Origin: Limnomonas spitsbergensis
Lineage: Eukaryota; Chlorophyta; Chlorophyceae; Chlamydomonadales
Reading direction: 5' to 3'
Length of the DNA: 64,000 nucleotides
Assembly (NCBI GenBank): GCA_037349105.1
Contig: JAYJMM010000114.1
Location: 310,001 to 374,000 of the forward strand
A program made the position numbers and the translations under genes. Position 1 is the first letter of the stretch. Each line of letters opens with the position of its first letter. This document shows, piece by piece, positions 1 to 38,600 of this stretch. Below the pieces are notes generated by a model, which worked only from the letters and a program-made list of their open reading frames with translations, had not been told where the DNA came from and did not search any database.

Positions 1-2
1 TG

Positions 3-2816
3 AAATCAGGATTTGGTCAAACTTCATTGTCTGAAGAATGTAGGGACATGACTGCGTTCTGGTGGAATGATAGGTGTTGGAAAACTAACCGAAATACCTT
101 TGGCCTTACCAATATGCCTGCATACTTCCAGCGAGTCATGAATACTGTCATAACTGAAGCAGGCCTTGACCACTGTTGTGTATGTTTTATTGATGATATC
201 CTGGTCTTTACCAAAGATCTTGCGTCGCACAAAGCAGCGCTTAAACTCTTGTTCGCTGCACTGAAAAATTGTCAAATGAAAGTGCATCCAGGGAAATGCA
301 AGTTCCTGTTTAACAGCCTAGAGTACCTTGGTCATATGATTGGGACGACAGGTATTTCCCCCAGTGAAACCAAGGTCTTGGCAATCAGGGCCTTGCCCAC
401 ACCTACTACTGTGCATGAACTGCGGCGTGTAATTGGGTTTGCTAATTATTACCGATGCTATGTCCCTAACTTCTCTGTCATCTCCAGCCCCCTTACAGAG
501 TTGTTTAAGAAGGACACTCCTTGGCTGTGGACGGCTGAAAGAGATAAGGCATGGGAACACTTAAAAGATGAACTCTGCAAACCTGGTAACGCATTGCGCA
601 CTCCTGATAAAAATCGCCGTTACATCCTTCACACAGATTGGTCCCAGAAAGGCATGTCAGCTGTTCTGGGTCAAAAGGATGATGATGGAAAAGAATATCT
701 TGTAGCCTGCATCAGCAGGACTTGCAATGTGCATGAGGCTAATTATGGCTCTTACAAGGGTGAAATGTTAGCTGCAGTATGGGGAGTGAGAGCCTTCCGC
801 TATTATCTGCTTGGAGCTAAAATACCATTTTTAATAATAAGTGATCATAAAGGATTGTCCTGGTTAATGTCTAATAAAGAGTTAGAGGGGCAGTATGCCC
901 GCTGGTCTGTCATGCTTTCACCATTCTCGTATGAGCTTGAATACAAACCAGGTGTTAAACATAGTGTTGCCGATGTCCCCAGCAGGTTCCCTGTCCAGTC
1001 AGATCTGGACTGGACAGGTACAAAGGAGAGTCACTTCGCAACAACGTGGCCCTTTTACTACAACTCTGCATTCTGCGGGTCAGGTGTAGACACAGACTTG
1101 ACTGCTAATAGTTCTAAAAGAGCTTATTCCCTCATGGCTGCTTGTTTGTCAAGAACGCCCCAGAGTGCAGTCCCGTGGGGATTTGCCATAGAACCTTTTG
1201 GTCCTGCAATTGATCCTGATCCAGCTCCTGATAAGGAGCAAGTTATTCCTGGCTTACAAATGATTTCTGAGGATGCTGAAATGTCTTTCCCTTCACCAGC
1301 CGAGTGGCCGGGCCTGCCTAGAACCCGAGCTATTTGGCCCTCTCCAACGTTCGGCCCGTCTGTTACAAATCATATTCATTCGTTAGCTACTAGACTGGTG
1401 CATCCTGATGACATGGATGAAATGAGTTGCTGTAATGCGTTTGATACTGCAGCTGCATTTGATTTTGAAATAAATGGCATTTCTTCATTTTCAACTCGTA
1501 TTCATGTGCCGCAGATGGATAATATGTCTGACAAACAGAAAGCCCTAAGAGGAACAGCTTCGTCGAGAGTTGAAGATTGCCGACTGCATTTGCAGGATTT
1601 GCCTCCTTCCCACTATACGTCACTGCAGGTGCAAGAACAGTCTCACGAAGGCAATCCAGTTGGGAAAGGAATTCAATCAATAAATTCTACACCTGTTCCT
1701 CAAAACAGCATTATTACTGCTGTGCAAGAAGGTGTGTCACTGATTGAGCTTTTTGGTGGCATGTGCGGTGGATTAGAATGCATGCTAAGAAATGGCATCC
1801 GCATCAATCGCTATTACTATGCTGACATTGATAACGGTGCAAGGGTTTGTGCCAAACACAGACTCAAGTTGCTCATGGAAGAGTATCCCAATCTTTTGAG
1901 TCATGATGCTGTTGCTAACACATTCACCCGGTTACCGCAGGATGTTTACAACATTAATGAGAGACATCTTATTGACATAGGATGCCTTGATGGTACCCAA
2001 TGGATGTTAACAGCGGGGTTCATGTGCACTGACCTGTCCTCTGCAGGAAAACGTACAGGTTTACAAGGAGAGAAAAGTTCCACATTTTTCCCTCTTATCA
2101 AAATTCTAGAATCTCTGCAGCATATGCAACAAGGAAGACGACCACCCATGTACTTTATTGAGAATGTTGCTGTACAATTTGCTATTGCAAAATCGCAGGC
2201 TATGATCGAGGGATTCCAGGAACTTACAGAGAGACTGGGACACCCAGTTTGCTTTGACGCTGTTGCTATAGGTAGCTATGCACACATGCTGCGTAACTAT
2301 TGGCAGAATATATGTTCCCCCGCGTCTCTGCAGTTGGTCATGATGTCATTTGTCCGTGATGATACATTGCGCTTGACTGACATACTTGATCATGGAAGAG
2401 AACCCCGTACCTGTTTCAAGGTTAACAGGTACCCATATCATCCAGCCAACATATTGGACGAACCTCTACGAGTTTTCCCAACTATGGTTGCAAGGATTGA
2501 ATCTTATGCGTTTCGTCCAAACCCTGAATATGAACCTGGACTTGTTTTGGAAACGGATCAAGCAGGAGTTGTCACTAGACATGCTCTGACCATTCATGAG
2601 CGTGAACGTGCCATGGGATATGCAGCCGACTGTACTGCTGGGCAAGATCTGATCTTTTCTGTGCGTCACAGGATTGTTGGAGGCGCTTTTGATGCTAATG
2701 CTGTCAGTCACCTGATTGCCGTGGGCTTTGCCATTCGATTTGCGTATATTCCACCGTTGCAGGAAATTTTTTCTGCTTTCAATAATTTCCTGCCTCATTC
2801 CTTTGCCACTACATGA
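3..2816 (+). CDS. Retrotransposon pol: reverse transcriptase - RNase H - C5-cytosine DNA methyltransferase (5' partial)
   Basis: Open from the window edge (first in-frame ATG at 27), so gag, protease and the first RT motifs lie outside. RT shows FGLTNMPAYFQ and the catalytic FIDD (nt 186-197). RNase H shows HTDWS, YKGEML, SDHKGL and VADVPSR (about nt 630-985). A linker of ~240 residues has no recognised domain. From nt ~1734 comes a cytosine-C5 methyltransferase: motif I IELFGGMCGG, motif IV MCTDLSSAGKRTGL (nt 2022 on, candidate nucleophile Cys), motif VI FIENV (2154-2168), motif X GGAFDANAVSHLI (2679 on). The CxDLS context resembles DNMT3-type enzymes (PCNDLS) more than the PCQ type; this subfamily call is inference. 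Stop TGA at 2814-2816; the integrase follows in the same frame. Confidence 0.9.
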   Translation, partial: KSGFGQTSLSEECRDMTAFWWNDRCWKTNRNTFGLTNMPAYFQRVMNTVITEAGLDHCCVCFIDDILVFTKDLASHKAALKLLFAALKNCQMKVHPGKCKFLFNSLEYLGHMIGTTGISPSETKVLAIRALPTPTTVHELRRVIGFANYYRCYVPNFSVISSPLTELFKKDTPWLWTAERDKAWEHLKDELCKPGNALRTPDKNRRYILHTDWSQKGMSAVLGQKDDDGKEYLVACISRTCNVHEANYGSYKGEMLAAVWGVRAFRYYLLGAKIPFLIISDHKGLSWLMSNKELEGQYARWSVMLSPFSYELEYKPGVKHSVADVPSRFPVQSDLDWTGTKESHFATTWPFYYNSAFCGSGVDTDLTANSSKRAYSLMAACLSRTPQSAVPWGFAIEPFGPAIDPDPAPDKEQVIPGLQMISEDAEMSFPSPAEWPGLPRTRAIWPSPTFGPSVTNHIHSLATRLVHPDDMDEMSCCNAFDTAAAFDFEINGISSFSTRIHVPQMDNMSDKQKALRGTASSRVEDCRLHLQDLPPSHYTSLQVQEQSHEGNPVGKGIQSINSTPVPQNSIITAVQEGVSLIELFGGMCGGLECMLRNGIRINRYYYADIDNGARVCAKHRLKLLMEEYPNLLSHDAVANTFTRLPQDVYNINERHLIDIGCLDGTQWMLTAGFMCTDLSSAGKRTGLQGEKSSTFFPLIKILESLQHMQQGRRPPMYFIENVAVQFAIAKSQAMIEGFQELTERLGHPVCFDAVAIGSYAHMLRNYWQNICSPASLQLVMMSFVRDDTLRLTDILDHGREPRTCFKVNRYPYHPANILDEPLRVFPTMVARIESYAFRPNPEYEPGLVLETDQAGVVTRHALTIHERERAMGYAADCTAGQDLIFSVRHRIVGGAFDANAVSHLIAVGFAIRFAYIPPLQEIFSAFNNFLPHSFATT

Positions 2817-2936
2817 CTGGAGCTGGGGGGGGATGGTGATCAGATATCTCAGCAGCTTAATCATTTATTTGCTGCTGGGGATTCTCTGATCTTACATGCA
2901 GCTCAGTCCTTAGCGGCTGAGTTCATAGAGCAGCCT

Positions 2937-5303
2937 ATGACCCGTGAGGAAGAGTCTCACTCGTTTGCAGATATCTGGCTGGACAATAATGCTATGCAAT
3001 ATCTGAGGCGTACAACTGACACAATGTTGCCTATGCTGACCCCTGTAGAACGCAAGCGTCTGCAACGACGAGCTGCGCTTTATCTCTGGTCTGCAGAAAA
3101 GAGTATCCTATATCGACGAATGCCAGGCGGTACAACTAAGGTGGTACCACCTCCTGGTGACCGGTTGGCACTCGTGCACAAAATGCATGTAGAAAATGGT
3201 CATTATGGCAGGCGCCGCACGACGGGGCTTGTTATGATGACTCACTGGTGGGTTGGCTTGTATAATGACTGCAAGAGAGTGGTCCAGTGCTGCGAGGCCT
3301 GTGATTACACTAAAGTATCGTTTAATGCTATGCAGCCTGTTATGCACCCCTTACCCATCAGAGGTTTAATGTACCGATGGCACTTGGATCTTTCTGGTCC
3401 TTATACGGCTTCTAACCGTGGCCATACCTATGTTATGGTAGCTGTAGAAAGCTACTCTAAATGGGTTGAGGTATTTCCCATGACTGCCAAATCATCTAAA
3501 GAAGTAGCTTACCATTTCCTGCACGGTATACTGGCACGATTTGGAGCATGCGCTGAAGTTGTCACAGACGGTGGTGGGGAATTTCAAGGTGAAATGGACT
3601 CACTGCTTGTTCGTGCCATGATTGATCATAGAGTTACGAGTTCTTTCCACCCCCAAGCCAATGGGCAAGCGGAAAGGCTGGTAAAGACAGTAAAAACTGC
3701 ACTATCAAGGCATTTGCATGTTTCAAGAGAACCTCGAGAATGGGACATGTATTTGCCCTGGATAGCACTCGGGTACCGAGTCACTAAGCATGCCAGTACC
3801 TTGATGAGTCCCTTCCAGCTGCTGTTTTCCTGTGAACCAGTCATCCCTCCTGCTATCATGGAAAGGTTGAATGGGGATCAGACAGTGGATTACCTGGATG
3901 TGGATGCTGCTGCTGAACTTGTACTGTCCCGTTCTGAATTGCTAGCCAAGAACTGCGTGATGGTCGGCCAGAACCTTTTGGTTGCTCAACAGCGAGATAC
4001 CCTGCGTTACGCAAGACTTCGCAGTGGAGGTTACCTCCCGTCAATAGCTAAGTATACTGAGGGGCAGTTTGTGTATGTGCGGGATGAGAACCGACTACAC
4101 TCTACTGCAAGACCTTACGTACTTCGAGTGTTTGATGTACGGCCAAGTGGAGTCATTGTCTTGGTTGGTCGCAATGGGGTGACTGTGGCTGAGAACGCTA
4201 TTAACTGCGCACCCTGTCATCTGCCCATAGAGGGACTGTTACTTCCATCCAAAAGATGGCAAAAGCCAGCACCAGATTTCCCTTGTCAGAGATGTCTGCT
4301 GCCTGATAATGCTAAGAAAATGATTCTGTGTGGCAGTTGTGGTCGAGGCACTCACACGTATTGTTTGGTACCACGGCTTACTACTGTCCCTGCTGGTTAC
4401 TGGATTTGTGAGCAATGCAGGATTGCAGGAGCTGACGCTACTGGTGCTGCAAGACGTGATGTTGCGGCGGAACTGGAGAAACCAGCGGCCGCCGTGACAG
4501 GTTACCAGCTGCGGCCTGCTAAGCAAAAGAAGGCAGGAAGGGTGATGGGAGCCGCCAGTGGCGGTGGCCTTGTTGAGAATGAAGAAGAAGGACGCACTGA
4601 AGACAAGGAAGAGGACGCAGATTGTCTTGCCGGGACCGCTGCAGGCGGTGCCAGAAGCAATGCGGGTGAGCTCGCCGGGACTGCCGCAGTCATCAGCAAT
4701 GAGGAAATTGCTGAGGAGGTGCAACCTGATGACCAGCGCCCCACCCGAGCATCTGCGAGGATCCGCATCCCCAACAAGAGGTTCGAAAGCCATGTCACTC
4801 ATCCTTGGGTGCCCCCGGACTTCATCAACTGGGGTGTCCGCGGAGATGCGGTGGCTGCTCTGAAGTCTTTAATGCCTGGAGTGTGGCGAGAGCGCGATGA
4901 GTCTATTTGGGCAACAGGGTGCCAGGAGGATGTTCGTACCAACTCTACCCTCCTTCACCTCTCACTATTGAAGACAGCGACTGTAACACTCTGCTGGACT
5001 GCCTTGACCTATCCCTGTCCCCCAGCATCCTTTTGCTGTTCAAGGATGATGGGCACGCCACAGAACTTCTGCAGAACAGTCAGCTTTACCCTTATCCTCA
5101 ATCCCTCCACGTTCTCACCAATTCGGGCATCGGCGTCAACGTTCCTGCAGATTACTGTGCTGATCCGCTGCAACCCTCCACCTACGAGTTTCTGCTGCGA
5201 CAGCATGGGCTGCACGTTCTCATCACAAACCCTCCGGCTGAATACGCTGATATCTCCTGTGCCCTTGCGGTCAAGTACGCACGGCACGTTGTCTGCTGCT
5301 TAG
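2937..5303 (+). CDS. Retrotransposon integrase with C-terminal PHD finger
   Basis: The frame is that of the upstream polyprotein and is open from 2817, so the ATG at 2937 may be internal to one long polyprotein interrupted only by the TGA. Seen: H2C2 zinc-binding motif (HVENGH about residues 84-89, CEAC about 119-122); the integrase core DDE (D151 in WHLDLSGPY, D211 in VVTDGGGEF, E246 in NGQAERL), spaced as in retroviral-type integrases; then at residues ~450-494 (nt 4284-4418) a C4HC3 cysteine/histidine pattern of a PHD finger, ending GYWICEQC. After it come acidic and Lys/Arg-rich stretches. Residues after ~660 (nt ~4,920) look like out-of-frame translation, because conserved-looking sequence continues in another frame. 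Integrase inserts the cDNA; a PHD finger usually reads histone H3 tails, so a targeting role is inferred. Confidence 0.9.
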   Translation: MTREEESHSFADIWLDNNAMQYLRRTTDTMLPMLTPVERKRLQRRAALYLWSAEKSILYRRMPGGTTKVVPPPGDRLALVHKMHVENGHYGRRRTTGLVMMTHWWVGLYNDCKRVVQCCEACDYTKVSFNAMQPVMHPLPIRGLMYRWHLDLSGPYTASNRGHTYVMVAVESYSKWVEVFPMTAKSSKEVAYHFLHGILARFGACAEVVTDGGGEFQGEMDSLLVRAMIDHRVTSSFHPQANGQAERLVKTVKTALSRHLHVSREPREWDMYLPWIALGYRVTKHASTLMSPFQLLFSCEPVIPPAIMERLNGDQTVDYLDVDAAAELVLSRSELLAKNCVMVGQNLLVAQQRDTLRYARLRSGGYLPSIAKYTEGQFVYVRDENRLHSTARPYVLRVFDVRPSGVIVLVGRNGVTVAENAINCAPCHLPIEGLLLPSKRWQKPAPDFPCQRCLLPDNAKKMILCGSCGRGTHTYCLVPRLTTVPAGYWICEQCRIAGADATGAARRDVAAELEKPAAAVTGYQLRPAKQKKAGRVMGAASGGGLVENEEEGRTEDKEEDADCLAGTAAGGARSNAGELAGTAAVISNEEIAEEVQPDDQRPTRASARIRIPNKRFESHVTHPWVPPDFINWGVRGDAVAALKSLMPGVWRERDESIWATGCQEDVRTNSTLLHLSLLKTATVTLCWTALTYPCPPASFCCSRMMGTPQNFCRTVSFTLILNPSTFSPIRASASTFLQITVLIRCNPPPTSFCCDSMGCTFSSQTLRLNTLISPVPLRSSTHGTLSAA

Positions 5304-5527
5304 TTTCCCAGGAATTCTTAACGTGCCATCCAGCAAGGTTTGAGTGGTTGTCCCAGCTACGCCGAGAGAGACGGCTAGTGATCCTGCAGTCTGTCAGCTT
5401 CACAGCAGGCCTGGGAGCTAACAGGTCCATTCACGGTTGTTGCAGTAATAAAGTATGGATCCTCGTGTTTGCAACTGCAGCTATCCGGGCAAGGATGCTC
5501 CCACCAATGCACTCGTTCATCCGCTAA
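4901..5527 (+). pseudogene. Methyltransferase-like domain with NPPA motif, -1 frame relative to integrase
   Basis: This frame is open from 4901 (after TGA 4898-4900) to TAA 5525-5527 and overlaps the end of the integrase frame. It encodes VLITNPPAEYADISCA (NPPA at 5228-5239), then VVCCLVSQEFL, an Arg-containing HPARFEWL segment and KVWILVFA near the end. The order (NPP[AFYW] motif after a hydrophobic strand, a hydrophobic strand plus FL, an R..WL helix, a final W-containing strand) is the layout of N6-adenine methyltransferase-fold proteins. I infer a second methyltransferase domain, originally fused downstream of the PHD finger. It has no convincing start codon, so it is reached by -1 frameshifting or has been cut off by a mutation. 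SAM-binding motif I is not clear. Confidence 0.55.
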
Positions 5528-6251: not shown

Positions 6252-6265
6252 ATCTGGGGGGGGAA
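6252..6265 (+). promoter_or_regulatory. Polypurine tract (PPT) next to the 3' LTR start
   Basis: ATCTGGGGGGGGAA directly followed by TGTCTTG, the TG expected at an LTR start. In LTR elements the PPT primes plus-strand DNA synthesis and lies immediately 5' of the 3' LTR. Confidence 0.65.
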
Positions 6266-7232
6266 TGTCTTGTGTTCTTTTCGCTTGGTGCACCCATTCC
6301 TTAGGGTGCACCCCTGTGCCGCGACAGCTGTCACGACGTATGACTGCACCGTGCGTTTGACTGCGCCAACTGCTTTTTCGGTTGGAAGTTATGTGTGAAC
6401 CTGAACAAGTGTGGTTGCCGTCTTAGAGGATCCCGAACTGGGTCCTTTACTTTTTCTTTCTTACTTGATTTCACGGCCTTCAATAGACTCTTAACGTTTC
6501 TAGCTATTGTCCCTTATAATCGATCTGCAAGTTAATCGTCAATCCAAGTCTTACTAAGGGGAAACTGGCAGAGCACTTAAGCCAACAGCGACTCTATAAG
6601 CATCAACAAGTCTCCTGATACGAAGCTGGCAGAGCACCTAAGCCAACAGTCGACCATCTGCAGCATTTAGCGTTATTCTTGCCTCTTAACAAGGCATATC
6701 TCCAGTCTTACAGCTGGATATTACCACCAACCCACCATCACATCTCCAATCTACAGCCTTCCCTGTGGCTCCAAGTCGACCGTCTGATTTATCAGAGATA
6801 TCTTCACTCATCAGAAGTCGCCAAGCAAGCGATTCATCACACAGATCAACGGCCACAATCGCCCAAGATCGTCCCAAGAAACCCATAAGTACCTCAAGTG
6901 TCGAGGCTTTACGAGATCTTGTCAACAGCATCGAAGAAGTCCAGGTGAAGTAGCAAGAGCTATCACCTGTTATCGAGCTGATTTCACTGAGTTACAGCAG
7001 TGGATCGAGAAGCTCTTACTATAAGCTCTGTAAGAGTTTATTAGTACTTGTTTAGGATGTCTTGTGTTCTTTTCGCTTGGTGCACCCATTCCTTAGGGTG
7101 CACCCCTGTGCCGTGGATCGAGAAGCTCTTACTATAAGCTCTGTAAGAGTTTATTAGTACTTGTTTAGGAATGTCTTGTGTTCTTTTCGCTTGGTGCACC
7201 CATTCCTTAGGGTGCACCCCTGTGCCGCGACA
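6266..7232 (+). repeat. LTR-like region bounded by a 61-bp TG...CA repeat with a hairpin
   Basis: An identical 61-bp unit, starting TGTCTTG and ending GCGACA, lies at 6266-6326 and 7172-7232; a copy lacking the last 6 bp lies at 7058-7112. Each contains the perfect inverted repeat GGTGCACCC / GGGTGCACC (6287-6312, 7079-7104, 7193-7218). The region either belongs to the 3' LTR of the Gypsy element or is a small TRIM-like element flanked by 61-bp terminal repeats. TGTAAG near 7029 and 7142 may serve as a 3'-end signal. Confidence 0.5.
7000..7226 (+). repeat. 113-bp tandem duplication inside the LTR-like region
   Basis: Two copies (7000-7112 and 7113-7226) starting GTGGATCGAGAAG; the second has one extra A at 7171. 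Each carries one copy of the terminal TGTCTTG hairpin unit. Confidence 0.8.
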
Positions 7233-7600
7233 ATCTGATCCTTCAGTTGATCTTCCTCATCAAGAGTCGTTCAGTCAGTTCTGCATTCTTCTTCACTTTG
7301 GGCTGTTTCGTCCACAAGTCCGATCCAGGCCGCCTCAACCTGGCAACTGTCGTCTTCAGTGCATCACTCTCCTCAAGGGTCGACTTCAATTCGTAACTTC
7401 TGTCAATCTGGTACCAGCCAGATTATCGCTCCTGCACAGCAAGTTACCCTTGGTAAAGGGCTCCTAGCAATCCTTTAAGAAGAGAAGAATCCAGGTTTGC
7501 ATCACTTCGAATCTGCAGGCGAGTAAAAACCGGAAATAAGGTTCATGATCGTGTTTTGTTGCCGAAAAGTGGGCGATAACAGCGAACATATCCCAGTTTC

Positions 7601-9795
7601 GTGTTCAACCCCTGGATGAATTCCGATTCTACCCAGGGAAAGAAGGGGCATGAGGACCCGTTCCTTCCCAAGCATGTAGCTCTCCCCAGACTAACTTCTA
7701 ATCAGAGGGAAAAAGAAGAGTCTGACAGGAACAAGGCAGAGGTGAGCAGTAAGCTCACTAGGGATGCGTCGCCGAAGCGGGGAGGGAGCCTCCTCAACAG
7801 GGGGCTCGGCCTCTCACTGAGGCCGAGCAACGCATTCAGTAGTCGATAGCCAATGATCAAGCAGTGACAGCTAAGCATGTTGCCAAAAGGCTGATGGCAC
7901 ATAACACGGATAAGGCAAGGAAGCAGGCTGTAGCTGAAGCAGTCCATGCTGAAGCAGTCCATCAGCGTCAACGTGAAATGTGTCGTCTTGACGCAGTGCG
8001 ACGTGCGGCCGAGCAACTAGAGCAGCAAGCCCCGCAGCAAGCTGCAGATGAGAAAGAGATGAGGGATCACATGATCTGTAGTGTAGATGAGAGGCTGGCA
8101 CAAACCCCTAAAAAGGTGACCCGTACTCATTACGAGGGCCTGCAGCGGTTTGACCAGCATGTCCATAACCCTGCATACCTTGTTGCACAAGACGATTGTT
8201 GCAGTGTACTCTCGTCACCTGTACCTGTGTCTGTCAAGGTTGCATCCGAGCCCCGAGGGGATCAGACTTCCCTTCCAGCAATGGCCTTGCAGGAATCACC
8301 GTGATGGCTGGCTCTCACCAGCCCGGCAACGTAGCTTACATGATCAACTCAGCTGTCGCTGTTCATGTACCCGAAGGCTTCGAGCATGAGGTGAAGCATG
8401 CCACACCCACGGCGTCACGTCCGTCGGCTGACCATGTTGCTCCTGAGTGTACCCCCACCCCCTCGTTTGTGAGTGTGGTGTCATGTGAGGCTATGCAATC
8501 ATGGGGGCCCCTAGGTGGGGCTGTCTCTGGCAAGGAAACGGGGCGGCATGACCCCACTGGTTATCAAGGTAAGCAACTGAATATGAACTAGCGGTTAGCC
8601 GTTGTTCCCATTGCTTCCGGGGCGAACGAGGTCGTCACCATCAGTGAGTTGAGGGACCTGCTGCGAGACCTGCTAGGGAGTTTGCATCATGGACGCCCGC
8701 CACCACTAGTAGTGGTGCTGCAGGAACAACCAGTACAGCATGTACAGCAGTACATGGGCTTTGGTAGCACGCCGTCAGGGGAGGACCCTCCAGGTGAGTC
8801 TCACCACCTGGGATGGGAGGGCTTCCCGCAGAGAGAGGGACAATCCTACGCCGCCGTGCCGTCAACACCAGTACACGGAGTACAGCTCCATGTGGGTGCA
8901 GCTCGGGCCAGAGGTCTCAGTCACCCATGGGCTAGTGGGGGCACACACCGACCTTACGACCAGCATGGGCCATCCATCCAGGGTGGGCACATGCATCGTG
9001 CTCCTATGAGTGGGGGGGCTCCCGGTGCCACCGAACCTCCTTTTATATGGGAAGGGTGGATCTGAGGGGCATTCAAGGTGGCCTTATACCGACCGTGATC
9101 ATTCAGGGTATGACCCAGGCAGGCCCCCGCATGGAGGAGAGGGGTCATGGGTCAGATCCGGCGGGACGGGGCATCCAGACGGTTCAGGTGGTACTGGCAA
9201 TCCTGATAGACTAGGGTACCCAAAGGGCTCCAGTGGGCCAGGAAGAACCGGGGGTCCAGGATACTCAGAGAGATCAGGAGGTCCAGGATACCCAGGGGGA
9301 TCAGGAGGTCATGTGCAGGCATATCGTGGACATGACGCTCTTGTGTCCCCAAGGAGGAAAGCACATGCAGTTAGAACTGGGCTGCCGTATTGATGGTGGG
9401 GGTTCACCCCCGGTAAATGAGTCGGTGGAGATCATGTCTGACATGCGTGGTAAGAAGCTAGTGGGTTCTCCGACTACCGCTACCTCAATGTGGCTACCCA
9501 AGGTGAGATGATGTTGTGGCATACTGCCATGAAGATGGGGTTGCCCAACTCGCTAGACCCCACCGTCTCCCCACATGAGAACCCTGCGCAGTTCGCCACG
9601 TGGGTGTGCACCACGTACAATGCATTCCTAGCCAGCAACAAAGATGCCTTCCTAGGGGTGTCCAGCAACATGGCTATGGTGACGGTGGTCAAAGAGGGGC
9701 TCCCAGCCAACCTGAGGGTGGCTTGTGACACCGATTTCAACAAAGGAGGTATCTTCACTCAGGGACATGTGAGAGTGCTGGCCAAGGTAGTCTAG
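7601..9795 (+). pseudogene. Degenerate gag-like region of a second LTR element
   Basis: Several short frames follow each other in different phases: 7601-7849, 7864-8304 (Ala/Gln/Glu-rich, helical), 8649-9065 and 9010-9393 (Gly/Pro-rich repeats of the type GGPGYPGGSG), and 9490-9795, which looks like a helical capsid segment (MKMGLPNSLDPT, FATWVCTTYNAFL). No frame is intact. The protease remnant downstream on the same strand supports a gag identity. Gag would form the virus-like particle; here it is clearly broken. Confidence 0.45.
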
Positions 9796-11589: not shown

Positions 11590-11708
11590 GGCTCCCTGCT
11601 TCACACCTGAATCACAAGTGATGTTTTATTAAATAATTGTGCGGTTCCCTCCATCCCTTGCATGCCCCATTCACAAGTGAGTACGGTCACCTGTGGCACC
11701 AAGGGGTG

Positions 11709-12089
11709 TCATTTAATTGGGGATTGCTGCTTAGCCTGAATGAAGTACCGTTCTTCCAAGATGGTATAGTAATGCCGCTGACCCGCATCGCAGGTCCCCG
11801 CAGCGGAGGGCTGCGACTGCAAATCCTCGTCGTGGGGCTGTTCAGAGCCCCCTCGGCCGCGGCCACCACGGCCGCGGCGGCGCCGACGCATCAGTATCTC
11901 CGTCATGCAGTCATTATGCTCCCGCCGGTACTCCTGGTTCTGGGAGTGGAAGAGACTGGTAATCTGCCCCTTCATGGCAGCGAGCCAGATGGTCAGCGCG
12001 TTGTGATTGCCTCCACCGCCGCATCCCTGGCTGCCGTTCTGTGACATCTGGGGCCGACAGAGTAAATGCGAGTTAGTAGCGGACGGCAT
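11709..12089 (-). CDS. Unrecognised ORF with an Arg/Gly-rich segment
   Basis: 126 codons, minus strand. It has a Gly/Asn-rich start, a helical middle (SLFHSQNQEYRREHNDC) and a basic RRRRRGRGGRGRGG block that could bind nucleic acid. It overlaps the preceding minus-strand frame (12073-12312) by 17 bp in another phase. It may be part of an unlisted transposon or a spliced gene; no family recognised. Confidence 0.25.
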   Translation of the reverse strand: MPSATNSHLLCRPQMSQNGSQGCGGGGNHNALTIWLAAMKGQITSLFHSQNQEYRREHNDCMTEILMRRRRRGRGGRGRGGSEQPHDEDLQSQPSAAGTCDAGQRHYYTILEERYFIQAKQQSPIK

Positions 12090-12312
12090 AAGCGAACTGC
12101 TCCGCCGGGGTGAGCACCAGCTGAGCCTCCAGCTCAGCTAGCCAAGGGTGCAGGTCAGCGCCATGCCACGGGTTGGGGGAGGTCATGATCCCAGGGTACA
12201 ACGCTGGCCACATGCTAAATTCTACCAACATGTCCGCGAGAACATATCGATAGAAGTTAGCACGCATGTCGTAATGCGTGGCCCGGGTGGCCAGGTCCGC
12301 CCGATAACGCAA
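12073..12312 (-). CDS. Unrecognised ORF, possibly an exon or transposon fragment
   Basis: 79 codons, minus strand, soluble and balanced in composition (FYRYVLADMLVEFSMWPALY, HPWLAELEAQLVL). It looks more protein-like than its surroundings but shows no motif I know. Confidence 0.25.
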   Translation of the reverse strand: MRYRADLATRATHYDMRANFYRYVLADMLVEFSMWPALYPGIMTSPNPWHGADLHPWLAELEAQLVLTPAEQFAYAVRY

Positions 12313-13040
12313 TATGAGGACCGCCCTTGCAGATCGGCAAATAATGCGCAGTTGTCAGGGATTTTTACGATATCCCTAATCTCCATATGCCGTCCACACA
12401 GGGCTAGAAGCAGGGGGGTGCTGACCATGCGGCACCGGGTCGCCTTTGTAAATCTTTAAAATCTGTGATTATTGTTATTTTTGCCTAGGCGGGACAAAGT
12501 GGTATGTATGCGGGGGTTGATATGTGTGCATGATGAGTCATGCAAGTTTGCCTGTGCGTTAAATTATAATTGTATTTCGTCAGATTACTTCAGCTGTGAC
12601 TTGGTCGCCGTCCGTGCTGGAAAGGATGGCCAGCACTCAGGACCAACTGGCACCGTCGTAAAGCTGCGGGTCTAGAACGGGCCCATCCAGTGTTGCACCT
12701 GGGACCACCCAGCCACATGGGACCACGTTTGTGTCGAGGACCATTCGTTCGGTACAGGACGGTCAAAAGCCATCGTCCGTTCAGTGAAGCTGCGTGTCTA
12801 GGACGGGCATGGGCTTGCGGCCTGGGCCCGTCCTAGATAGAGCTTCCCGAGAATTGTTCAACATGCACGCCTTGCCTGTATGCCAGCTGACGCTGGGGCC
12901 TTATTTGCTGGGGAGGCAGAACAGGGTCGGTGTTGGTCAGTGCCGCAGGGTCGAGCTTCGCGCTTGAGCCGAACGACTGACACGGCTTCCTCGAAAAAAT
13001 CGCAAATTGCGCGCGTTCTTCTGCGCTTGATTGTTTGCTT
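12313..13040. other. Intergenic, no feature recognised
   Basis: Contains a short diverged repeat (GCTGCGGGTCTAGAACGGGC near 12,663 and a similar run near 12,790) and nothing coding that I can support. Confidence 0.4.
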
Positions 13041-23390: not shown

Positions 23391-25230
23391 GTGAGCAAGA
23401 CTGATTATTTGGGGCCTTCTATCAAACTTATTCCAACCCTTGGACAGGCACCTCCTTGGTTGAGCCTCCTTTTTCCGGTCCTGCACTGCTCAAGGCTATC
23501 CGATGGTCGTTGGCATCACTTCAAAAACAACCCCACATACCTACATCGACCTTCATCGTTGTTCCCAATTGAAAACAGGCCAAATTCATGACCCTCCTCA
23601 ACTCTGGCCATCCCCATATCTCTTACACCAACCTCCACCACACCCATTTACCTTTTCTTCCCCCGACCATCTCACTCCGGCCGATATTGCTAACGCAGGC
23701 ATGCCGAAATTTGACCTTCTCCTCCTCATCATCTCCAACACTCTTGGCGATACAACCCGTACTTTCCCATATCTTGCCCCCACTTTGGCCCCGGGCTCCT
23801 CCCACCCTTCTCGCACAGTGCTCCCTCCAGGTTTATTTTGGCCAGGTAAATCTCCTTCCTCTGCCCACCACAATCTTTGCACCTCCACCCTCAGCCCAGC
23901 CAAGCCCGGCAACCCCTCCACCCTACGCCCCATCCTACCCCCTCCGTTGGCACGATATACCGGCATATTACACCAATGGCTCGGCCCTATCTACACCTGG
24001 CAAAGGCACAGCCACGGGTGCAGCCTTCTATTGTACTCAAGACACCACTACCTACACAGTCCACCCCGATGGCCGGGCTGAAACCAACACTTTTACACGG
24101 GCTGAGCTTGCTGGCATCCATGCTGCCTTCACTCACGCCGCCTTACACCACACCGGTGATCTTACCATTTTCTCAGATTCCTTGGTTTCTCTGTATGTAC
24201 TACGTAGGCACTCGCACCACCCCCCACTGTCCCATATGCTCCCATTCCAATGATGCCCCTGGCCATCTTTTAGGCGGTTGTGCTCATTCCTCCGTGTCCG
24301 CCTCATTGCATTGCTGGACACGCCCGAGCTGTCTGCATCATCCAATCTGCTATTGCTAATGGCTCTCTACCTAGGATCCTCTTTTACTATCATGGATGCC
24401 ACTTCCCGTGCCAACCTTCCCTTCGGGGTCTATGACACCCGTCTTCCACGTTGGCTGGTGCCCCGACGACCTACCACTTTCCCTGACACCTTTGATTACT
24501 GTGACAAACTGCGACCGGATTTGCTTTTTGTCCAAGGTCTCCCACATTCCGAATTCCTTCGTCTTTACCGCGCTGGTCAACTCTCTAGCTCACAAACTAT
24601 GTCTCGCCTCCAGAAAACTTGCACTGTACACGTAGTTGAAGTCGGTTACAACTCCAAATTTTCTTTCGAACAATGCCATGCCCGTAAATCAGAACAACAT
24701 TTACAGCTTATCCTTCTCCTCAAACATAATGGTTGGACAGTTTCCTTGGCACCCGTTCTCCATACCGCCCTTCCACCTGATCCTTCGCCAACCCTGCCCA
24801 TCCCCCCCCCTCATCCTTCCCCGCCTCCTTCTCATACACATATCATCCTTCTGGGGACCGCAGGCTTTAAGGCTTCCTCTTTCGTCCTGCCGATAAAATC
24901 CTCAGCATGCATGTTCGGTGTCTCCAAACACGATATCTCCTCCGTCCTCAGCCGTCTCACCAAGCATACCATACGCTGTCATATAAACATTTTTCGTCAG
25001 CGTCGCCATCTGGAAAACTCCCCTGCCCATTATTGTCCGGTACCCCTAGACGACCCTCCTTACCCACCAGGTTTTTTGTCTCCCTGTGTACGGTATTTAA
25101 AATCCCTAGGGTTTCCATTCCTCAAGCCACGCTCAGGCGTTTTCTTTCTTTCTTTCTGAGAGATTTTTCGTATTCCTCAAGATATTTTCCTTTCTTATTG
25201 TTTTACTTCTTTATTGATCCAGCCCTTTGA
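23390..25230 (+). mobile_element. Decayed LINE (non-LTR retrotransposon), 3' half
   Basis: Contains an RNase H region, a CxxC...H...C zinc motif and a conserved-looking C-terminal domain, in several frames. The RT is absent. The plus-strand order RNase H, zinc motif, C-terminal domain is that of algal LINEs. Confidence 0.65.
23588..25159 (+). pseudogene. LINE ORF2 remnant: RNase H, zinc motif, C-terminal domain
   Basis: Frame 23588-24253 holds the RNase H motifs TNGSA (usually TDGS), TRAELAGIHAA and IFSDSL. A second frame near 24,215-24,300 holds CPICSHSNDAPGHLLGGC, the CxxC...H...C motif near the end of LINE proteins. Frame 24278-25159 holds DLLFVQGLP, HVVEVGYNSKFSFEQ, KSEQHLQLILLLKHNGW and HIILLGTAGFKASS; the EVGY...EQH...L...G pattern is what I associate with the C-terminus of chlorophyte LINEs and may be nuclease-like. 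Frame changes and the D-to-N change in RNase H show it is inactive. Confidence 0.6.
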
Positions 25231-29934: not shown

Positions 29935-31035
29935 TACACCCGAATCCCTTTTATGTTAACACCCGAATCCCTTTTACGTTACACCCGAATCCCTTTTACG
30001 TTTCACCCGAATCCCTTTTACATTACACCCGAATCCCTCTTTATGTTACACCCGAATCCCTTTTGCGTTACCCCTGAGTCCTTTTTACGTTACACCCGAG
30101 TCCCTCTTTACGTTACACCCGAATCCCTTTCACCTTACACCCGAATCCCTTTTACGTTACACCCGAATCCCTTTCACGTTACACCCGGATCCCTTTTACG
30201 TTACCCCCGAGTCCCTTTAACGTAACACCCGAATCCCTCTTTACGTTACACCCGAATCCCTTTTGCGTTACCCCTGAGTCCTTTTTACGTTACACCCAAG
30301 TCCCTCTTTACATTACACCCGAATCCCTTTCACGTTACACCCAAATCCCTTTCACGTTACACCCGAATCCCTTTCACGTTACACCCGAGTCCCTTTTACG
30401 TTACACCCAAATCCCTTTCACCTTACACCCGAATCCCTTTCACGTTACACCCGAATCCCTTTCACGTTACACCCGAATCCCTTTTTCGTTACACCCGAGT
30501 CCCTTTTACGTTACACCCGAATCCCTCTTACGTTACACCCGAATCCCTCTTGTTACACCTGAATCCCTCTTTAGGTTACACCTGAATCCCTTTTACGTTA
30601 CACCCGAATCCCTTTCACGTTATACCCAAATCCCTTTCACGTTACACCCGAATCCCTTTCACGTTACACCCGAGTCCCTTTTACGTTACACCCGAATCCC
30701 TTTTACATTACACCCGAATCCCTTTTACGTTACACCCAAATCCCTTTCACCTTACACCCGAATCCCTTTCACGTTACACCTGAATCCCTTTTACGTTACA
30801 CCCGAATCCCTTTCACGTTACACCCGAATCCCTTTCACGTTACACCCGAATCCCTTTTACGTTACACCCGAATCCCTCTTTACGTTACCCCTGAGTCCCT
30901 TTTGCTTTACCCCTGAGTCCCTTTTACGTTACACCCGAATCCCTTTTACGTAACACCCGAATCCCTTTTTACGTTACACCCGAATCCCTTTTACGTTACC
31001 CCTGAGTCCCTTTCACGTTACACCCAAGCCCCTTT
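29935..31035 (+). repeat. 22-bp minisatellite (ACACCCGAATCCCTTTTACGTT), ~50 copies
   Basis: 1.1 kb. Variants carry AGT for AAT, CACG for TACG and CCCCTGAGT; their mixed order suggests repeated local unequal exchange or slippage. Confidence 0.97.
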
Positions 31036-34799: not shown

Positions 34800-35686
34800 T
34801 TGATCGGCCCTGCAAGTGAAGAGAAATGATATGCGTCATGCATGACTCCATCACCCATCATTCAATAGGTAGTTGTTTGATAAAAGGACAAGAGGGTCAG
34901 CGGGTTCAGGAGGTTGTTGCTACAAATTTGACTCAACATCCCACAGCCTTTTGCGAAAGGCCCAGGCAGAGCGATCCGGGGGGAAACTGCAAACGAAAGA
35001 AACGCAACAACCACCCAAGAACAAACAGAGACACCAGGAGGTAAGCTGGGCGGATGAGTCCTGTAGGGCATGCTTCTTGATGCTCTGCGTGTTGAAGCTG
35101 GTCTGAGGGCAGGGAGGGGTCAGGGTGGGAAAGAGAGTGAGAGAGTATATGCGATGATTCATTACCCCAGAAGCAGCAGGGGTGATGAGGCCGAGGAGGA
35201 GGCTTGTGGATCATACTGCCCAGTATGTAATGAATCCAGGGGAAAGTCAGTGCAGGGAAGCTGTTTAGAGGGCCGTGATAGAGGTCTGCAGGTCCAGGAG
35301 GTGGTTCTGGCTGTGGAAGCTGAAAGAAGAGGAGCAGGGCAGGAAAGTTTGTCGGCCAGTATGGGCGGTATGGCTCATGGGGCCCAGGAGGAGGTTTTGG
35401 TCGCTGGTGGATCTGGCTGCGGAAGCTGTGCGGAGGGCAGGAGGGGAGCAGGGCAGGAAAGCTAGTCGGCCGGTATGGGCAGGTATGGCTTATGGGGCCC
35501 AGGAGGGCGTCCGCTGATGCAGCTAACATATTGAGTGGAAGGCTGGTCAAGGTGCACAGAGGGCAGGAGGGGAGCAAGGGCAGGAACGTGAAACATGAGG
35601 CAATCGGCGTGTTACGAGCTGACCTGGTCCTAGCCTGGCCTGCCCTGGTCATTGGGCATATTTATGGGCCCTGGCCTGGTCAAATG
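34800..35686. other. Possible 5' flank of the AP2-like gene
   Basis: G/A-rich duplicated segments (GGGCCCAGGAGG near 35,380 and 35,495). No promoter element can be defended. Confidence 0.3.
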
Positions 35687-38600
35687 GCAGTAGGGCAGTA
35701 GGGCAGTAGGGCAGTAGGGCAGTAGGGCAGTACGGCAGTAGGGCAGTAGGGCAGTAGGGCAGTAGGGCAGTAGGGCAGTAGGGCAGTAGGGCAGTAAGGC
35801 AGTAGGGCAGTAGGACAGTAGGGCAGTAGGGCAGTAGGGCAGTAGGACAGTAGGGCAGTAGGGCAGTAGGGCAGTAGGGCAGTAGGGCAGTAGGGCAGTA
35901 GGGCAGTAGGGCAGTAGGGCAGTAGGGCAGTAGGGCAGTAGGGCAGTAGGGCAGTAGGGCAGTAGGGCAGTAGGGCAGTAGGGCAGTAGGGCAGTAGGGC
36001 AGTAGGGCAGTAGGGCAGTAGGGCAGTAGGGCAGTAGGGCAGTAGGGCAGTAGGACAGTAGGACAGTAGGACAGTAGGGCAGGTGGGCAGGAGGGCAGGA
36101 GGGCAGGAGGGCAGGAGGGCAGTAGGGCAGTAGGGCAGTAGGGCAGTAGGGCAGTAGGACAGTAGGGCAGTAGGGCAGCAGGGCAGCAGGGCAGCAGGGC
36201 AGTAGGGCAGTAGGGCAGTAGGGCAGTAGGGCAGTAGGGCAGTAGGGCAGTAGGGCAGTAGGACAGTAGGGCAGTAGGGCAGTAGGGCAGTAGGGCAGGA
36301 GGGCAGGAGGGCAGTAGGGCAGTAGGGCAGTAGGGCAGTAGGGCAGTAGGACAGTAGGGCAGTAGGACAGTAGGGCAGGAGGGCAGGAGGGCAGGAGGGC
36401 AGTAGGGCAGTAGGGCAGTAGGGCAGTAGGGCAGTAGGGCAGTAGGGCAGTAGGGCAGTAGGGCAGTAGGGCAGCAGGGCAGCAGGGCAGTAGGGCAGTA
36501 GGACAGTAGGGCAGTAGGGCAGTAAGGCAGTAGGGCAGTAGGGCAGTAGGACAGTAGGACAGTAGGACAGTAGGGCAGGAGGGCAGTAGGGCAGTAGGGC
36601 AGTAGGGCAGTAGGGCAGTAGGGCAGTAGGGCAGTAGGGCAGGAGGGCAGTAGGGCAGGAGGGCAGGAGGGCAGGAGGGCAGGAGGGCAGGAGGGCAGGA
36701 GGGCAGGAGGGCAGGAGGGCAGGAGGGCAGGAGGGCAGGAGGGCAGGAGGGCAGGAGGGTAGGAGGGTAGGAGGGCAGGAGGGCAGGAGGGCAGGAGGGC
36801 AGGAGGGCAGGAGGGCAGGAGGGCAGGAGGGCAGGAGGGCAGGAGGGCAGGAGGGCAGGAGGGCAGGAGGGCAGGAGGGCAGGAGGGCAGGAGGGCAGGA
36901 GGGCAGGAGGGCAGGAGGGTAGGAGGGCAGACGGGCAGAAGAGCAGGAGGGTAGGAGGGCAGGAAGGTAGGAGGGCTGGAGGGTAGGAGGGTAGGAGGGT
37001 AGGAGGGCAGGAGGGTAGGAGGGCAGGAGAGCAGGAGGGCAGGAGGGTAGGGGGGCAGGAGGGCAAGAGGGCAGGAGGGCAGGAGGGTAGGAGGTCAGGA
37101 GAGCAGGAGGGCAGGAGGGCAGGGGGGCAGGAGGGCAGGAGGGCAGGAGGGCAGGAGGGCAGGAGGGCAAGAGGGCAGGAGGGTAGGAGAGCAGGAGGGC
37201 AGGAGAGCAGGAGGGCAGGAGGGCAGGAGAGCAGGAGGGCAGGTGGGTAGGAGAGCAGGGGGGCAGGAGGGCAGGAGGGCAGGAGGGCAGGAGGGCGGGA
37301 GGGCAGGAGGGTAGGAGAACAGGAGGGCAGGAGGGCAGGTGGGTAGGAGGGCAGGAGGGCAGGAGGGCAGGAGGGCAGATGGGCAGGAGGGCAGGAGGGC
37401 AGGAGGGCAGGAGGGCAGGAGGGCAGGAGGGCAGGAGGGCAGGAGGGCAGGAGAGCAGGAGGGCGGGAGGGCAGGAGGGTAGGAGGGCAGGAGGGCAGGA
37501 GGGCAGGAGGGCGGGAGGGCAGGAGGGTAGGAGAGCAGGAGGGCATGACAGCAGGAGGGTAGGAGGGAAGGAAGGCAGGAGGGTAGGAGAGCAGATGGGT
37601 AGGAGGGCAGGACAGTAGGAGGGCAGGAGGGTAGGAGGGCAGATGGGCGGGAGGGCAGGAGGGCAGGAGGGCAGGAGGGCAGGAGGGCAGGAGGGCAGGA
37701 GGGCAGGAGGGCAGGAGGGCAGGAGGGCAGGAGGGCAGGAGGGCAGGAGGGCAGGAGGGCAGGAGGGCAGGAGGGCAGGAGGGCAGGAGGGCAGGAGGGC
37801 AGGAGGGCAGGAGGGCAGGAGGGCAGGAGGGCAGGTGGGTAGGAGGGCAGGAGGGCGGGAGGGCAGGAGGGCGGGAGGGCAGTAGGGTAGAAGAACAGGA
37901 GGGCAGGAGGGCAGGTGGGTAGGAGGGCAGATAAGTAGGAAGTCATGAGGGTAGGAGAGCAGGTGGGCAGGAGGGCTGGAGGGCAGGAGGGCAGGAGGGC
38001 AGGAGGGCAGGTGGGTAGGAGGGCAGGAGAGCAGGCGGACAGGAGGGCAGGAGGGCAGGAGGGTAGGACGGCAGGAGGGCAGGAGGGCAAGACGGTAGGA
38101 GGGTAGGAGGGTAGGAGGGCATGAGAGCAGGAGGGCAGGAGGGTTGGAGGGCAGGAGGGTAGGAGATCAGATGGGTAGGAGGGCAGATGGGTAGGAGGGC
38201 AGGAGGGCAGGAGGGAAGGAGGGAAGATGTGCAGGAGGGCAGGAGGGCAGGAGGTCAGGAGAGCAGGAGGGCAGGAGGGTAGAAGGGCAGGAGGGCAGGA
38301 GGGTAGAAGGGCAGGAGGGCAGGAGGGCAGAGGAGGGCAGGAGGGCAGGACAGTAGGAGGGCAGGAGGGCAGGAGGGTAGGAGAGCAGATGGGTGGGAGG
38401 GCAGATGGGCAGGAGGGCAGGAGGGCGGATGGGTAGAAGGGCAGGAGGGCAGGAGGGCAGGAGGGCAGGAGGGCAGGAGGGCAGGAGAGCAGGAGGGCAG
38501 GAGGGCAGGAGGGCAGGAGGGCAGGAGGGCAGGAGGTTAGTAGGGCAGGAGGTCAGGAGAGCAGGAGGGCATGAGGGTAGAAGGGCAGGAGGGCAGGAGG

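Follow-up and report, generated by a model that had tools for sequence, protein, structure and literature searches.

A retrotransposon of the green alga Limnomonas spitsbergensis with a Ty3/Gypsy-type Pol in which a predicted DNMT3-type cytosine methyltransferase lies between RNase H and integrase

Introduction

Cytosine methylation is normally directed at retroelements, and a de novo-type methyltransferase (MTase) inside a pol gene reverses these roles. The closest described system is KnitGypsy-Dnmt3 of the streptophyte Klebsormidium nitens, reported as a long terminal repeat (LTR) Gypsy element with a Dnmt3 domain in Pol and a ratio of nonsynonymous to synonymous substitution (Ka/Ks) below 0.2 (PMC5890265); the Fig. 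4 legend of that paper gives its repeats the order A-coding-B-A-B, as in DIRS elements, together with Gypsy domains. It is the sole published Gypsy case that we found, and by itself it leaves open whether it is an oddity. Here we describe an element of this kind in a stretch of 64,000 nucleotides (hereafter the window) from the chlorophyte Limnomonas spitsbergensis (contig JAYJMM010000114.1, positions 310,001 to 374,000; C114:310001-374000 in our numbering), whose Pol frame appears to carry a DNMT3-type C5-cytosine MTase domain between RNase H and integrase.

Compared by description, this element shares with KnitGypsy-Dnmt3 a Gypsy Pol, a Dnmt3 domain within it, purifying selection and A-coding-B-A-B repeats; it differs in having chlorophyte relatives, in comprising three subfamilies, and in the presence of a PHD finger and another C-terminal domain (the term "PHD" occurs 0 times in the main text of PMC5890265). 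The dinoflagellate SymbioDIRS-Dnmt3 elements, as presented in the same paper, are likewise retroelements whose Pol frame includes a Dnmt3 domain, and methylation of complementary DNA (cDNA) was proposed for them, their enzymes being active on CG in yeast; however, they use a tyrosine recombinase where the present element has a DDE integrase of the rve family. SymbioLINE-Dnmt, also described there, is another retroelement with a cytosine MTase, but it is a LINE with the enzyme in an upstream open reading frame and of an orphan DNMT class. The ChloroDNMT clade of chlorophytes and charophytes consists of green-algal cytosine MTases too, which, as described in the portion of PMC12344493 consulted, often bear a PWWP domain, are not presented as element-borne and are thereby set apart. 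Orchid Ty3/Gypsy elements have also captured a nucleic-acid modification enzyme, in their case an N6-methyladenosine RNA demethylase domain and no MTase, according to the part of PMC9289625 consulted. Within titles and abstract openings, a scope outside which most subscription papers fall, we found no report of a chlorophyte element of this kind. What is new here is the chlorophyte relatives, the three subfamilies, the PHD finger, the conserved C-terminal domain and the TG..CA ends on split repeats.

Results

Frame 3 of the forward strand is open from 3 to 2813 (937 residues) and runs through the end of reverse transcriptase (RT), RNase H, a linker and the MTase domain. The DNA_methylase family PF00145 matched the whole open frame at E 1.0e-6 and window 1734-2813 alone at 31.3 bits against a curated cut-off of 22, so that the profile match, the motifs and the Pfam order all bear out the proposal of the first-pass annotation that a C5-MTase follows RNase H in one frame, inside a Gypsy-type pol and ahead of the integrase. 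All 26 matches at E<=0.001 in a sequence search of the PDB were DNMT3A, DNMT3B or DNMT3C (best 6.2e-8). Profile ranking against solved structures only placed DNMT3A (1.1e-12) ahead of DRM (4.1e-8), HhaI (4.2e-6) and DNMT2 (E 1.3), so that the C5 enzymes other than DNMT3 rank lower among the families listed, and a fold comparison, again over solved structures only, put DNMT3A first. We assign window 1734-2813, from its sequence, to a predicted C5-cytosine MTase domain of DNMT3 type. Outside the elements, the tree has just a single DNMT3 row and two further rows, its branches are long, and it gives no firm grouping of the domain with DNMT3. DNMT3A joins a PHD-like ADD reader to its catalytic domain, and the animal DNMT3A and DNMT3B catalytic domains, the top matches by sequence and fold, thus resemble the present protein also in having a PHD-type histone reader attached; the differences are that identity over the fold is only ~16-20%, that motif IV reads SPC in place of the FMC found here, and that no RT, RNase H and integrase are joined to them.

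The domain contains the blocks that correspond to motifs I (ELFGG), IV (GFMC), VI (IENV) and VIII (LRNYW), and a C-terminal block (ERERAMGY..RHRIVGGAFDANAVS). Of 16 family rows, 15 retain both the catalytic Cys in motif IV and the Glu of motif VI (ENV/ENT), the exception, P0005, having a break in this part; the two residues are also present in all 30 genomic loci compared. The Arg pair of motif VIII (HRLRNYW) is intact in 28 of the 30. Phage and viral origins of the domain were considered and rejected: the best phage match (4e-7) spanned half of the domain at 27% identity, and viral structures fitted more loosely than DNMT3 (TM-score 0.39 against ~0.5). Two IMG/VR scans gave no relative that could be confirmed.

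The fusion recurs throughout the 260-Mb assembly. With the MTase as query, we found at least 113 places, 97 at 84-100% identity (subfamily A), two at 68-73% and 14 at 55-59% (subfamily B). Twelve subfamily A places lie inside open Pol frames of 2251-2253 residues and six subfamily B places inside frames of 2186-2215 residues, with a stop noted in the match for one of the six. One Pol of each subfamily was read whole, and both have the order RT-RNase H-MTase-H2C2-rve-PHD followed by the C-terminal domain in a single frame. A Pfam search of the genome with PF00145 gave 123 scored rows, 69 of which we assigned by profile range to a third subfamily, C; its frames reach 5315 residues (for example at C40:531980, C4:4135179 and C26:2193536), and the eight of the 69 rows that were read all hold a C-type MTase. 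One subfamily C copy (L074) has RNase H-MTase-H2C2-rve by Pfam, and a separate one (L081) has a PHD finger past the integrase, so that the finger is found in read copies of all three subfamilies. The genomic copies with the same order that the first-pass annotation had called for were thus found. Three subfamily A loci on three contigs (L022, L023 and L024) differ at only 2-5 of 4077 bases and must therefore have been copied recently. The region upstream of Pol includes a long gag-like frame, in which one motif resembles a zinc knuckle by eye, a protease-like frame (Asp_protease_2, E 0.0013, under its cut-off) and three further frames that had no match.

The genome also holds C5-MTase genes or pieces outside elements: L051 (C30:293433), L052 (C93:390191), L053 (C14:272908), L054-L060, L062, L063 and L068. 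By eye they are nearer to bacterial or viral enzymes than to DNMT1 or DNMT3, and L052 and L053 include an HMG-box-like stretch.

Nine of the 30 loci, all of subfamily A, are stop-free over 4077 bases and formed the set for the analysis of selection (36 pairs); the remaining 21 loci, which include the window copy, were excluded. The ratio of nonsynonymous to synonymous substitution (dN/dS) was 0.085 for the MTase (codon bootstrap 0.056-0.117), compared with 0.030 for RT/RNase H, 0.058 for the integrase part and 0.170 for the linker; the 36 pairs are not independent, since three of the nine copies are nearly identical. Between subfamilies A and B, whose synonymous sites are saturated, identity falls from 79.6% in RT/RNase H to 66.2% in the integrase, 56.7% in the MTase, 50.0% in the PHD finger, 46.0% in the C-terminal domain and 38.1% in the linker. 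The low dN/dS together with this identity indicates that the MTase domain is kept under purifying selection in subfamily A, less strictly than RT.

The window holds the 3' part of a 16.7-kb copy (C114:300569-317232), whose features are given in Table 1. Its Pol frame begins, stop to stop, upstream of the window at C114:308803 (the upstream frame is in L031). The Pol order RT-RNase H-integrase, with a DDE integrase of the rve family, is that of Ty3/Gypsy elements. The joint between MTase and integrase is readable in 26 of the best 30 genomic loci, all of subfamily A, and is free of stops in 24 of the 26, those with a stop being the window copy (L001) and L008.

Table 1. Features of the 3' part of the element in the window
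Feature	Position in window	Strand	Evidence or remark
Reverse transcriptase, C-terminal part	3..341	+	Pfam RVT_1 E 2.3e-17
RNase H	528..926	+	PF17917 (RT_RNaseH) E 5.3e-28; PF17919 3.9e-25
Fast-evolving linker, ~240 residues, from RNase H to MTase	1003..1733	+	no Pfam match; dN/dS 0.170
Predicted C5-cytosine MTase domain, DNMT3-like	1734..2780 (3' edge approximate)	+	PF00145 E 1.9e-7 (1734-2813 searched alone)
In-frame TGA at the MTase/integrase joint of the window copy	2814..2816	+	frame reading
Integrase zinc-binding domain (H2C2), same frame after the TGA	3150..3314	+	PF17921 E 2.9e-10
Integrase core (rve, DDE type), same frame	3372..3650	+	PF00665 E 1.4e-8
PHD finger 3' of the integrase, same frame	4284..4418	+	PF00628 E 6.8e-9
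Conserved C-terminal domain of Pol, in a frame other than the integrase's in the window copy	4901..5527	+	
G run, polypurine-tract-like, directly before B1	6256..6263	+	
Repeat B, first copy (B1)	6262..6326	+	
Repeat A, right copy (A2), 729 bp	6329..7057	+	differs from A1 (C114:300569-301297) at 1 base
Repeat B, second copy (B2), local duplication of A-end and B	7057..7232	+	element terminates ..GCGACA at 7232
Target-site duplication ATCT, 4 bp, right copy	7233..7236	+	left copy C114:300565-300568

In the undamaged copies read, the C-terminal domain shares its frame with the rest of Pol. Searches of Pfam, PHROGs, NCBIfam, the PDB, phages and plasmids gave nothing convincing for it, and a protein search with this frame as query gave no relatives. 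Its pattern LTN..PADY..ITNPP..SFTAG (window 4901-5524) is reminiscent of N6-adenine methyltransferases; as an identification this was rejected, given the lack of a convincing library match, a poor single-sequence fold (pLDDT 36) and the fact that P0006, P0008 and subfamily B no longer have the NPP motif.

The ends of the element are of integrase type and its repeats are split in the order A-coding-B-A-B. In the window copy, A1 opens the element and the right end reads B1-A2-B2, with outer ends TGTCACG and GCGACA (TG..CA). A second copy, C114b, has a 4-bp target duplication of its own (CCTG), and its A1 and A2 show 3 differences in 728 bases; TG..CA ends with a 4-bp duplication were thus seen in both of the two copies with both ends examined. 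The B1-A2-B2 arrangement occurs also in C114b, C41, C71 and C116 (where A is short), while the C106 copy stops within A and the C3 copy is without the end of A2. When the left end served as query, 39 of the 42 matches listed, the window copy included, went from A into the gag region; in 36 of these the start lies at most six bases from the TG of A, and in the other three it falls on the first base of the query, nine bases ahead of that TG. The query was without B, and the window copy and C114b are the only copies in which the lack of B ahead of A1 was observed directly. Two equal complete LTRs, as a Ty3/Gypsy element would have, were not found: the left end is A only and the right end is B-A-B, and we therefore speak of a Gypsy-type Pol on split repeats and not of a standard Gypsy element. 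Where B1 meets A2, the sequence GCGACA-GC-TGTCACG resembles an LTR-LTR junction. Classification as a DIRS (tyrosine-recombinase) element was rejected, as an rve integrase and 4-bp duplications were found instead, and Pfam scans of the frames scanned gave no tyrosine recombinase.

Three further observations concern these repeats. Contig C111 (199402-252318) has tandem B-A units, mostly ~917 or 1014 bp apart, over ~50 kb, which look like an LTR-derived satellite of the element. The left flank of the window copy (C114:300115-300568) is an older repeat that resembles the A region of subfamily B (79%) and hosts the element; the right flank fits by eye. In the subfamily B copy L033, a B-type repeat is also found inverted near the left side (515-564, 9426-9475), beside an array of 34-base repeats.

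Two protein searches gave 13 relatives (P0002-P0005 and P0006-P0014). The sole named ones, P0007 and P0008, come from the chlorophyte Chlamydomonas eustigma (Chlamydomonadales), in keeping with the chlorophyte look noted in the first-pass annotation; no match was named KnitGypsy-Dnmt3 among the protein relatives found. The order RNase H-MTase-integrase is common to the three subfamilies, a C. eustigma protein and a JGI protein. P0007 and P0011 have RT-RNase H-MTase-integrase in one chain, P0006 has MTase-integrase-PHD, P0010 RT-RNase H-MTase-G-patch and P0009 RNase H-MTase; by Pfam, the PHD finger is present in P0006 and P0011 and not in P0007 or P0008. Trees of RT/RNase H and of the MTase over the same eight rows both recover a clade of subfamily A, subfamily B and C. 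eustigma (100/100 and 100/99). There is no starred conflict between the trees; the other four rows branch differently and with weak support, the pairing of P0010 and P0011 in the MTase tree being the exception. The matching clade fits one old fusion passed on by descent.

A second placement is seen in P0012-P0014, retroelement-like proteins in which a related MTase comes after a protease-like stretch (under the Pfam cut-off in P0013 and P0014); P0013 and P0014 have zinc knuckles ahead of the MTase.

Discussion

Based on these findings, we lean towards the view that this retrotransposon with a Ty3/Gypsy-type Pol uses the DNMT3-type MTase between RNase H and integrase to methylate its new DNA copy or its insertion site. 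The MTase would be made as part of Pol and travel with RT and integrase in the particle. Because it is encoded within Pol, its likeliest substrate, if it is kept with RT and integrase, would be either the target locus or the double-stranded cDNA of the element itself; it may thus act on that cDNA, or on chromatin at the site read by the PHD finger. The polyprotein would then couple a histone reader (PHD), an integrase and a DNA-methylation writer, much as DNMT3A pairs a reader with catalysis. Integration itself may start from a circle or junction form, because the integrase-type ends lie at the outer A1 and B2 and the LTR-LTR-like B1-A2 meeting lies inside.

Several observations weigh against an active enzyme of this kind, and some of them would suit a domain kept for binding, that is, a DNMT3-like scaffold for Pol assembly or for holding DNA whose catalysis is weakened or lost. 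The Pro usual before the Cys of motif IV is Met in subfamilies A and B and Glu in subfamily C and several relatives. In motif VIII, the window copy has Met in place of the first Arg, and L029, a copy that is otherwise open, has His in place of the second. The enzyme of KnitGypsy-Dnmt3 gave no methylation in yeast, a result that its authors call inconclusive in the text consulted (PMC5890265). Old copies of the present element likewise lack a mutational footprint of methylation. In the 21 decayed copies, C>T changes number 77 of 2340 at CpG against 652 of 21733 elsewhere (CHG 167/5786, CHH 485/15947), in a test biased by its use of columns where the nine open copies agree; private C>T changes, few in number and counted in 14 of the 21 copies chosen for good alignment, come to 5 of 2219 at CpG against 59 of 18422 elsewhere (Fisher p 0.55). 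The absence of a rise at CpG argues against stable CpG methylation of old copies, and it bears on these and not on cDNA or fresh insertions. A pure scaffold, however, would have no need of the catalytic Cys and the motif VI Glu, which are kept almost throughout, and we regard this explanation as improbable, if the most serious of the alternatives. It also weighs against our proposal that PF00145 scores are weak: whole Pols reach 25.2 bits in subfamily A (the C3 copy, above the cut-off) and 19.5 in subfamily B (below it), P0003, P0006, P0008, P0009 and P0010 fall under the cut-off as well, and P0005, P0007 and P0011 have no match at the limits used, their domains being recognised by 35-47% identity to that of the window. 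Moreover, Pol of the window copy is broken twice, by the TGA past the MTase and by a frame break ahead of the C-terminal domain.

The enzyme might instead act on the host, methylating its chromatin in trans and so disturbing or feeding the host methylome. The high copy number (at least 113 places for subfamilies A and B and 69 of the 123 PF00145 rows for C) would suit such a role, but placement in Pol would tie the enzyme to the particle, and the observed/expected ratio of CpG, 0.56 in the element (window 1-5527) and 0.58 in the rest of the window (7301-64000), singles out neither; we think this rather unlikely. Less likely again is an RNA substrate, with 5-methylcytosine placed on the element's own genomic RNA. 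The MTase adjoins RT and RNase H, and some enzymes of the DNMT fold (DNMT2) methylate tRNA; the best relatives are nevertheless DNA enzymes, DNMT2 scoring only E 1.3 in the profile search. A chance nested insertion or an assembly artefact might be suspected from the single copy in the window and the stop after its MTase, yet the same fusion stands in three subfamilies and in proteins of other sources, and the element is cleanly bounded and flanked by a target duplication. With at least 113 scored places in the genome and three subfamilies, the fusion is therefore not due to chance, and we consider this explanation ruled out.

Methylation of the element's new copy or insertion site, which we favour over these alternatives, could be part of a wider scheme that we put forward as speculation and hold to be doubtful as a whole. 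Here PHD finger, DDE integrase, DNMT3-type writer and a C-terminal domain that looks like a degenerate N6-adenine methyltransferase would together make chromatin-aimed, self-methylating insertions; integration would proceed from an LTR-LTR (circle-type) junction, frozen as B-A inside copies; and the lineage would extend from Klebsormidium to the Chlamydomonadales. As to that lineage, the first-pass annotation had expected a chlorophyte case to be an instance separate from that of Klebsormidium. This expectation did not hold up: a separate capture is unsupported because Gypsy pol, Dnmt3 in Pol and A-coding-B-A-B repeats are common to both, and on our analysis one shared lineage and two captures appear equally likely.

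Three subfamilies and open, nearly identical copies in one genome make the element's gain from its own MTase testable, since copies whose MTase is intact can be set against those that lack an intact one, with respect to methylation, insertion site and copy number. A PHD finger paired with an MTase suggests a specific reader-writer hypothesis, and a further question, on the substrate of integration, is posed by the integrase-type ends of the split repeats.

Elsewhere in the window, pieces like the 5' region of the subfamily B element lie at 11604-12446 (74-82% identity, partly inverted), and an open frame at 23573-24253 resembles by eye the RNase H of another retroelement. Long simple or low-complexity repeat tracts, open in several frames, occupy 35630-38552 and 30078-30953.

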